This document shows, piece by piece, positions 4,250 through 41,714 of a stretch of DNA of 64,000 bases (positions within the stretch are counted from its first letter, which is position 1; the number at the start of each line of letters is the position of its first letter). Location: assembly GCA_903862935.1 (NCBI GenBank), contig CAIOZY010000028.1, positions 1 to 64,000 on the forward strand, in the 5' to 3' direction. The notes under the pieces were generated by a model that worked only from the letters and a program-made list of their open reading frames with translations, did no database searches and was not told where the DNA came from. The position numbers and the translations under genes were made by a program. The DNA comes from an uncultured Opitutaceae bacterium (lineage in GTDB: Bacteria; Verrucomicrobiota; Verrucomicrobiia; Opitutales; Opitutaceae).

Positions 4250-4435
4250 ATGACCAAAATCTGCGCTGGAAATGGGATTGACTGGGCAGACAGGAGGGTC
4301 TGCAGTCCCGCCGTCCGTTCTTTTTCATATCTGAGGCAGCGGGGAAGGCCGTGAGAATCGGCCACAGTTGCGCTGCGGTATCGCATCAGTCCAAACCTCC
4401 GCCACGCCCATAAGGGCGTGGCAAAGCCAATCGGG
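4250..4435 (+). ncRNA. Candidate cobalamin riboswitch (boundaries approximate)
   Basis: GGGGAAGGCCGTGAGAATCGGCCACAGTTGCGCTGCGGTA (4341-4380) resembles the GGGAA...GTGAAAATC...CNACTGT core. CAGTCCAAACCTCCGCC (4387-4403) resembles a B12 box. Located upstream of a btuB-like gene. Confidence 0.65.
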
Positions 4436-4660
4436 TTCATTCTCGGTGAAGGCGGAGGTCAGGCGGTCGGCCTGTGCCGGCGACAAATGCGGAGTCCGAA
4501 TATCTGCTCCTCAGAGGCTCACTCGTCCGGCGCGAAACTTTTGCGCGTGCCGGTCGCAAAATCTTCATCGCAAAAATGAAGCGTGAGAGCAGGGTTGCCG
4601 ACCGGCATCCGGGAGGCGGTGTCTGCTCTTACCCAAACTAAGAGAGACCCTTCCGTGAAT

Positions 4661-39698: not shown

Positions 39699-39715
39699 AG
39701 GGCCTAAACGGCCCT
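39699..39715. terminator. Bidirectional terminator-like hairpin GGGCC-TAAAC-GGCCC
   Basis: Sits between two convergent genes and overlaps the rpmG stop. Confidence 0.45.
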
Positions 39716-39878
39716 ACTTGATCTCCTTGTGGACGGTGTGGCGCCGCAGGTGCGGGTTGTACTTCTTCTTGGAAATACGCTCCGTGACCGTCTTCTTGTT
39801 GCGAAACGTGAGGTAGCGGGAGACCTGTTTGCCTTCCTTCTTAGCCTCGGTGCATTCCAGGGTGACAAGTTCTTGCAT
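39714..39878 (-). CDS. rpmG: 50S ribosomal protein L33
   Basis: Translated manually: [54 protein letters not shown]; absent from the ORF track. Confidence 0.92.
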
Positions 39879-39952: not shown

Positions 39953-41299
39953 CTAGCGGCGCTTCTCCGTGAGCGGCAGCATCACCCCGCGCCGGAAGAG
40001 CGTCACCTGGCCGGTGCTTGAGGAAACAACGATCGAAATGCAGTCGGCCGCCACGCTCACCGCGGCCGCTGCGGCGTGGCGGCTGCCCAGCCCGCTCGGC
40101 AGGTTGTGGTCGCTGTCGGTCGTCGCCTGGACGAGGCTCCCGGCAGACTCCACCACCCCGTCGCCCCGGATCACGAAGGCCCCGTCGATCGACGAGAACT
40201 CCTTGACCGTCTCGTCCATGAAGGGGTTGAGGATGTTGCGGTCCTCCTCCTTGTACCCGTGGAAGGGATTGAGGACCAGGGGCTTGGTCAGGGTCGTGAC
40301 CTTGTCGGTGTCGCCGACCACGAACAGGCACCCCACCGGGCGCCCCTCGCGCCCCTCAACGCCGAGCTCGGTGGCCACCGCGATCACCCGCTCGAGGACC
40401 TCGGGCTTCACGTCGGCGGGCAGCAGGTCCGCCGTAGAGCCGGTCAGCAGGGTCTGGAACTCGCGCTCGATGTCGACGACGATCAGCGTGTCGAACTGGT
40501 TGCTCCCGGTGGTGCCGCCGATGCAGCAGACCCGGTCGTTGAAGGCGATCACCCCGCGGGTGAGGGCGACGAGAATCGCGCTGCGCAGTTGGGCCATGCG
40601 CTGGCTGGAGAAGGACCGGACCTGGATCGTGTCGGCGAAGGCGTCCTTGTCCTCGCTCGGCTCGATGGGGTTTCGGGTGACGAGGATCGTCTTCAGCCGG
40701 GACTGCAGGGCCTCCCGCTCGATCCCGCCGATGAAGGTGTCGCCGAAGACCATCATGACCCGGCACGCCGCCCCGCGGGCGACCCGCTCGGCCTCGCGGA
40801 GCATCAGCCGGTTGATGCGGTTCTGCTGGGCCTGGACGGGCCGGATCCCGCCGAAACCGCCGACCAGACGCTCGAAGAGGCTGTCCAGGTCGGGCGCGTT
40901 GATCAGGCTCTCCACGAGCTCGGGCTCGCGCACCTGCCGGGCGATGGAGGCCAGGACCTGCAGGTAGTCGCGGGCCTTCTCACCGGCGATCAGCATCACG
41001 ATCAGGTGGACCCGCTCGTCTGCGATCGCGCCGTCGTGCCGGATCCCGGCCCGGCTGCGCCCGATCGCCAGGACATAGCGCCGGCTCATCTTGACCCGGA
41101 CGTGGGGGAGGGCGACCCCGAACCCCAGGTAGGTCGTCATCGTGCTCTCGCGGGCGAGCAGGCCCTTGAGGAGTGCCTCAGGCTTCAGGTCGGGAAACTT
41201 TCCGACAGAGACCCGGACGAGCTCGTCCAAGGCGCCCTCCAAGTCGGCGCTGCGCAGGTCGACGATCCGGCTACGGGCGATTATCTTGTCTAGCCTCAT
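39953..41299 (-). CDS. PTS EIIA-like / PK-C-like / diadenylate cyclase (DAC) fusion protein
   Basis: EIIA site TTYLGFGVALPHVRV; middle domain RGAACRVMMVFGDTFIGG...SRLKTILVTRNP; DAC-like SSIDGAFVIRGDGVVESAG...LPSGLGSRHAAAAAVS...ISIVVSSSTGQVTLFRRG. Confidence 0.78.
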   Translation of the reverse strand: MRLDKIIARSRIVDLRSADLEGALDELVRVSVGKFPDLKPEALLKGLLARESTMTTYLGFGVALPHVRVKMSRRYVLAIGRSRAGIRHDGAIADERVHLIVMLIAGEKARDYLQVLASIARQVREPELVESLINAPDLDSLFERLVGGFGGIRPVQAQQNRINRLMLREAERVARGAACRVMMVFGDTFIGGIEREALQSRLKTILVTRNPIEPSEDKDAFADTIQVRSFSSQRMAQLRSAILVALTRGVIAFNDRVCCIGGTTGSNQFDTLIVVDIEREFQTLLTGSTADLLPADVKPEVLERVIAVATELGVEGREGRPVGCLFVVGDTDKVTTLTKPLVLNPFHGYKEEDRNILNPFMDETVKEFSSIDGAFVIRGDGVVESAGSLVQATTDSDHNLPSGLGSRHAAAAAVSVAADCISIVVSSSTGQVTLFRRGVMLPLTEKRR

Positions 41300-41339: not shown

Positions 41340-41714
41340 TCACCTCTCCCATTCGAGGGCGCCCTTCTTGACCTCGTAAATCAGGCCCAGCACCAGGATG
41401 CCGAGGAAGAACAGGAGCGGGCCGAGGATCGCGATGTGGTTGGCGAGGAACTCGCGGTAGACAACGGCCGACGGAATCAGGATCACGACCTCGAGGTCGA
41501 ACAGCATGAACAACAGCGCCGTCACAAAGAACTTGATCGGGAAGCGGACCGGGGCCGGGCCGCTCGACGCGATTCCGCACTCGTAGGGGGAGTCCTTGAT
41601 CGGCGTGCGCTTCGCCCGCTGGCCGAGCAGCGCGTGCGCACCGATGACCGCACCCGTGATGACCAGGGCGAGCACGGCTTGGACGAGGAAAGGCAGGTAG
41701 GAGGAGGTCGTCAT
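41340..41714 (-). CDS. nuoA: NADH-quinone oxidoreductase subunit A
   Basis: SPYECGIASSGPAPVRFPIKFFVTALLFMLFDLEVVILIPSAV. Confidence 0.93.
   Translation of the reverse strand: MTTSSYLPFLVQAVLALVITGAVIGAHALLGQRAKRTPIKDSPYECGIASSGPAPVRFPIKFFVTALLFMLFDLEVVILIPSAVVYREFLANHIAILGPLLFFLGILVLGLIYEVKKGALEWER

Follow-up and report, generated by a model that had tools for sequence, protein, structure and literature searches.

A diadenylate cyclase fused to a PTS EIIA-type domain suggests a route from nutrient status to potassium control in Opitutales

To our knowledge, the control of c-di-AMP synthesis is poorly known, and the input signal is obscure for most diadenylate cyclases (DACs). The locus described here lies in a window of 64,000 nucleotides (the whole stretch of DNA that was analyzed) from an uncultured Opitutaceae bacterium, and it raises the question of how a DAC might be controlled by a domain of the phosphotransferase system (PTS) to which it is covalently joined. 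Since the only DAC of the genome is fused to a domain that can be phosphorylated by known chemistry, the input to this cyclase is directly testable.

The fusion gene, its domains and its neighbors

A preliminary description of the window had placed a 448-aa open reading frame (ORF) at positions 39953-41299. That ORF was confirmed, and its strand, which had not been given, is the minus strand, such that the gene reads from 41299 down to 39953. Since the frame of the encoded protein is kept at 52-84% identity in 27 contigs, and also across the order Opitutales, a chance ORF was ruled out, as was an artefact of antisense or overlapping ORFs, the plus-strand ORFs of 332 and 405 aa being GC-rich shadows. 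The features of the locus are as follows:

39953..41299, minus strand: EIIA-DacZ_P-DAC fusion gene, 448 aa, ATG start, stop codon included (ORF, Pfam and orthologues)
40868..41248, minus strand: PTS EIIA type 2 domain, residues 18-144, EIIA-Ntr/PtsN-like fold (PF00359)
41102..41104, minus strand: codon of His66, the predicted phospho-acceptor, in GVALPHVRV (conservation)
40451..40822, minus strand: probable sensor domain DacZ_P (PF21755), residues 160-283, with a fold like that of the pyruvate-kinase C-terminus
39983..40363, minus strand: DAC domain, residues 313-439 (PF02457; Foldseek matches to CdaA/DisA)
40178..40186, minus strand: DGA motif, residues 372-374 (DG invariant, A in 54/56)
40076..40081, minus strand: Arg407-His408 of the 'RHR' motif, here RHA (RH in 124/124)
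41340..41714, minus strand: nuoA-like gene, directly upstream with a 40-nt gap (Pfam PF00507, E 1.4e-27)
39714..39878, minus strand: rpmG (ribosomal protein L33), downstream neighbor (Pfam PF00471, E 3e-15)

Three consecutive Pfam domains, all scoring far above their curated cut-offs, were identified in the protein: PTS_EIIA_2 (67.7 bits versus a cut-off of 27, E 1.4e-18), DacZ_P (108.7 bits versus 27.4, E 2e-31), which Pfam describes as a 'probable sensor domain', and DAC (74.6 bits versus 27, E 6.5e-21). All three were present in 27/27 sequences scanned. Structural modelling gave a consistent picture. The full-length AlphaFold2 model was built from an alignment of 27 sequences and had a mean pLDDT of 75.6 and a pTM of 0.50, a value so low that the model does not settle how the domains are arranged relative to one another. 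Foldseek searches with this model matched the first domain to EIIA-Ntr/PtsN and EIIA-mannitol and the last to CdaA/DisA. For the EIIA domain the TM-scores of the PtsN/EIIA-Ntr targets (1a6j, 3urr and 2a0j) were 0.79-0.88, and a PDB profile search also returned a PtsN match (E 3.7e-12). The middle domain was modelled separately (pTM 0.70), and pyruvate kinase accounted for all 50 of the top PDB matches listed. The assignments of EIIA-like, pyruvate-kinase-C-like and DAC-like segments made from the letters of the sequence were thus borne out by Pfam as well as by AlphaFold2 and Foldseek; the AlphaFold check proposed in the same description yielded structural matches to both EIIA (PtsN) and DAC (CdaA/DisA), and the likeness of the middle segment to the C-terminal fold of pyruvate kinase was upheld by DacZ_P and by the 50 listed matches. 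The first domain was classed as PTS EIIA type 2 based on a score above the cut-off and the presence of the phospho-His, in a genome that encodes both EI and HPr; its score for the PtsN equivalog TIGR01419 stayed well below the NCBIfam cut-off (43 versus 138.7 bits). The phospho-His context GFGVALPHVRV was found as first quoted, and His66 within it is invariant in 56/56 aligned homologues from close relatives.

The order dnaG, a 382-aa protein, nuoA, the fusion gene and rpmG is widely conserved among relatives, with rpmG neighboring the DAC gene in about half of them. As nuoA lies directly upstream in 23/27 relatives, at gaps down to 13 nt, co-transcription is likely, and the nuoA-like gene and the fusion gene probably share a transcript; a subunit of respiratory complex I is possibly co-transcribed with a c-di-AMP synthase gene. 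There were no PTS genes near the fusion gene, the neighbors being nuoA and rpmG, and a search for a riboswitch or a sigma-70-like promoter in front of the gene found none. Some DACs are linked to CBASS; a role in defence was ruled out here, based on the lack of any PADLOC match and the housekeeping nature of the neighbors. Elsewhere in the window, a cobalamin riboswitch was identified at 4286-4527 on the plus strand (Rfam RF00174, 33.1 bits).

Distribution, PTS partners and c-di-AMP turnover

The fusion protein is the sole DAC in its genome; in the same search E. coli, among the control genomes, yielded no DAC. DacZ_P was found in 46 of the 289 genomes sampled from the phylum, almost all of them in the order Opitutales, and a DAC was found in 128 of the 144 genomes sampled from the order, nearly always in the form EIIA-DacZ_P-DAC or in an EIIA-less form. 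The nearest named relatives come from Opitutaceae/Opitutia assemblies (77-84% identity), and every title in the scan of close-relative contigs was Opitutia, Opitutaceae, Puniceicoccaceae or Verrucomicrobiota. No DAC-EIIA fusions were found among plasmid records. Two further arrangements were observed. At L097 and L098, in a family outside the order (f24), an EIIA-DacZ_P-DAC gene has two EIIA-containing ORFs, of about 300 aa and 610-620 aa, within a few kb on its flanks. In one genus (g178; L075, L128, L129 and L130), several genomes encode an additional DAC protein that differs from the first; it is 402-438 aa long, its motifs are DGAV and GTRHAAA or GTRHSAA, and the third Arg is absent there too.

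The genome encodes the upstream components of a phosphorelay, namely EI with its active-site TSH motif (GSKTSHTAIVAR), HPr with a GIHARPA motif and HPr kinase (HPrK). EIIC was searched for as the PF02378 type, which is absent from this genome and from 43/46 sampled genomes of the order, and based on this the PTS may be mainly regulatory. In some relatives EIIC occurs together with EI-HPr-EIIA fusions, as belongs to a complete sugar PTS. One other EIIA_2 protein was identified in the genome of the window, encoded beside a P-type cation ATPase gene on contig C13 (L095:7855-8715, minus strand). It is about 287 aa long, with an intact phospho-His and a C-terminal half that has no domain assignment, and its gene lies about 9 kb from that of the PgpH-like phosphodiesterase.

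This last protein has the PgpH architecture (7TMR-HDED, 7TM and HD) and was designated a PgpH-like HD phosphodiesterase. Its presence tracks that of the DAC: among 41 genomes of the order, some of them incomplete assemblies, 34/36 with a DAC have one and 4/5 without a DAC lack one. A c-di-AMP (ydaO) riboswitch was identified on contig C16 at 1720-1891 (L209, plus strand; 56.6 bits, the gathering score being 38). It precedes, by about 110 nt, a gene whose 662-aa product is homologous to the K+ transporter KimA (L209:2001-3989, E 5e-62 to 6s3k). Under strict filters this riboswitch was found in 2/41 genomes of the order, in both cases preceding a kimA homologue.

The catalytic site and the role of the EIIA domain

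We consider it somewhat probable that the fusion protein is the sole, PTS-regulated and soluble DacZ-type c-di-AMP synthase of this bacterium, with its output set by two N-terminal inputs. The domains, the motifs, the status as sole DAC, and the presence of EI, HPr, HPrK, the PgpH-like protein, the riboswitch and KimA were computed directly; catalysis, phosphotransfer and gating by the fusion protein are what we infer.

With regard to catalysis, the DGAF (372-375) and GSRH (405-408) motifs are present as quoted in the preliminary description. Asp372, Gly373, Arg407 and His408 are invariant in 56/56 aligned homologues, and DGA is found in 111/124 members of the order. The full RHR motif of CdaA/DisA is not present, its third residue being Ala. 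This substitution had been read correctly at the outset; the doubt about activity that was drawn from it has been largely removed, given that Ala occupies the third position in 98 of 124 Opitutales proteins (S is found in 14, and the rest have T, M, V or G) and that two haloarchaeal proteins annotated as DacZ have GTRHHAAAA, that is, RHH. Because Ala is the norm of the family and haloarchaeal DacZ is also without Arg, Ala at this position is not a sign of decay, and, judging by these alignments, the third Arg is neither required nor defining in the DacZ branch. The missing Arg could nonetheless be taken to mean that the DAC is degenerate and that the protein is a sensor of c-di-AMP or ATP without synthase activity, in keeping with the finding that changing RHR to AAA in M. 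tuberculosis DacA abolished activity (PMC3328451). However, all three residues were changed in that mutant, whereas Arg and His are invariant in 124/124 proteins here, and Mn-dependent DAC activity is known for the DacZ of H. volcanii (PMC6741144), RHH itself having been read in the two haloarchaeal proteins annotated as DacZ. With RH invariant, Ala the norm, and the protein being the sole DAC beside a PgpH-like phosphodiesterase and a c-di-AMP riboswitch, we rejected a degenerate catalytic site, and consider a non-catalytic sensor very improbable.

With regard to phosphorylation, the logic is that if EIIA acts through it, the constraint on His66 should be lifted in lineages that have lost EI. 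His66 was kept in 86/95 EI-bearing genomes versus 10/29 EI-less genomes. Among the other EI-less genomes, 12 have a different residue and 7 lack the whole EIIA domain, the seven EIIA-less proteins still being DacZ_P-DAC with their DAC motifs kept. Loss of His66 or of EIIA was thus found in 19/29 EI-less versus 9/95 EI-bearing genomes (Fisher p 5e-9, a value that counts related genomes as if they were independent). About seven losses of His66 can be placed on the tree; five are nested in clades that lack EI, and the other two fall in EI-bearing clades, namely family f64, with PY, and genus g25. A branch-length test gave p 0.03-0.06, and an independent-pairs test of EI versus His66, which had too few transitions and pairs, was not significant. 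Some of the ten EI-less genomes that retain His66 are perhaps incomplete assemblies. Conservation of position 66 was 91% in EI-bearing genomes versus 45% in EI-less genomes, counting there the proteins that still contain EIIA; Gly59, Gly80 and Arg81 fall much less, and Leu103, Leu47 and a few other positions fall as far. General relaxation is a confounder, since the EI-less genomes are also small and streamlined and sit on long branches. With about seven independent losses, five of them in EI-less lineages, the association is only suggestive, and as such the co-variation of EI and His66 in these sequences, together with the presence of EI, HPr and HPrK, lends indirect support to gating by phosphorylation. 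In seven streamlined Opitutales genomes of 0.8-1.0 Mb in which EI is absent (L081, L105, L106, L143, L173, L187 and L189), the DacZ_P-DAC protein has no EIIA and is about 300-350 aa long, in effect a natural deletion of EIIA.

There are two further ways to understand the EIIA domain of an active synthase. It could be mainly a scaffold or docking module, with DacZ_P as the real sensor, of a metabolite, and with phosphorylation of His66 having little effect. The persistence of DacZ_P-DAC in small genomes whose protein has no EIIA (G307, G319, G320, G329, G342, G370 and G400) indicates that EIIA is dispensable and fits this explanation, as do the PK_C-like N-termini that are a common feature of DacZ/CdaZ (PMC6741144) and the two EI-bearing clades in which His66 is replaced while the EIIA domain is kept. 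A pure scaffold, however, needs no His, and the fall at position 66 with EI loss is much greater than at Gly59, Gly80 and Arg81; overall we regard this explanation as rather unlikely. Alternatively, EIIA could be a canonical phosphotransfer intermediate, in a sugar PTS or as a phosphate sink, in which case c-di-AMP synthesis would feed back to the PTS instead of being set by it. EIIA type 2 is indeed the fructose/mannitol/Ntr class, and the complete sugar PTS of some relatives would accommodate such a role, but the absence of PF02378 EIIC here and in 43/46 of the order, the presence of just one other EIIA_2 in this genome and the conservation of the fusion across the whole order all speak against it, and we hold it to be improbable.

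A proposed route to potassium and comparison with known systems

For a PTS-regulated synthase, the sequence of events would be as follows. Phosphate would pass from PEP to EI, to HPr and then to His66 of the PtsN/EIIA-Ntr-like domain, and the pyruvate-kinase-C-like DacZ_P domain, which probably binds a small ligand, would supply the second input. Phosphorylation of His66 may alter the packing of the N-terminal domains, which in turn may alter the head-to-head pairing of DAC domains and with it the output of c-di-AMP, such that the PEP:pyruvate (carbon/nitrogen) state would be coupled to c-di-AMP. The PgpH-type phosphodiesterase would degrade the messenger, and the riboswitch before the gene for the K+ transporter KimA would be one of the elements that sense it. 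It is possible, as a more tentative extension to the Opitutales as a whole, that the PTS of these bacteria serves chiefly as a regulatory phosphorelay, with the attached c-di-AMP synthase as its principal output and the signal running from PEP:pyruvate through His66 and c-di-AMP to K+ uptake. The branch of the circuit through the riboswitch and KimA is not general, given its occurrence in 2/41 genomes.

The highest DacZ_P scores in the scan of the phylum came from genomes of the window's own family, and it is therefore very probable that this group was seen when the Pfam DacZ_P family was made. Galperin 2023 is reportedly a census of DAC architectures. Since Pfam DacZ_P exists and its best scores in the phylum scan fall in this family, EIIA-DacZ_P-DAC has very probably been catalogued already and is perhaps listed there, as far as we can judge from these scores. 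Title and abstract searches of open full text turned up no article that describes a DAC-EIIA fusion or its regulation, the single hit being a review of biofilm regulation in S. mutans. What looks new here is the co-variation of EI with His66, as a phosphorelay, and the circuit from the PTS to c-di-AMP to K+. The genomic evidence suggests that in these Opitutales nutrient status may feed straight into potassium control by way of the fusion protein, in which case the nitrogen-type PTS and c-di-AMP, two potassium regulators that have been studied separately, would be joined in one protein.

Among known DACs, the archaeal DacZ/CdaZ (DacY) enzymes are among the closest in plan, having likewise a PK_C-like N-terminal domain and a C-terminal DAC and, in haloarchaea, likewise a non-Arg residue at the third RHR position. 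The resemblance to these enzymes that was noted in the preliminary description held up, in that the DacZ model matches residues 234-440 of the fusion protein (E 1.3e-34) and the PK-C-like domain is present. However, the protein lies far below the cut-off of the DacZ equivalog NF041371 (119.8 versus 430 bits) and, unlike archaeal DacZ, it is bacterial, has the DacZ_P version of the sensor and carries an added PTS EIIA. Its mode of action would resemble that of DacZ/CdaZ, with an EIIA-Ntr-like domain as an input, while by the NCBIfam cut-offs it is an equivalog of neither DacZ nor PtsN. With CdaA, DisA, CdaS and CdaM it shares the DAC domain, the DGA and RH(x) motifs and a fold match, but it has no transmembrane, HhH or CdaS-type regulator, and its input would come from EIIA and the PK_C-like domain. 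With PtsN/EIIA-Ntr it shares the fold and the phospho-His context of the EIIA domain; His66 is also the phospho-site of S. fredii PtsN1 (PMC9239096), where the identical residue number is a coincidence. Unphosphorylated EIIA-Ntr controls K+ uptake via KdpD (PMC9239096), and the targets of PtsN are proteins that it binds, KdpD among them, rather than a cyclase, whereas here EIIA is covalently fused to the DAC. If the proposed circuit is true, it would be a direct route from the PTS to a second messenger to potassium, one that parallels, by different parts, the EIIA-Ntr/KdpD system of Proteobacteria.
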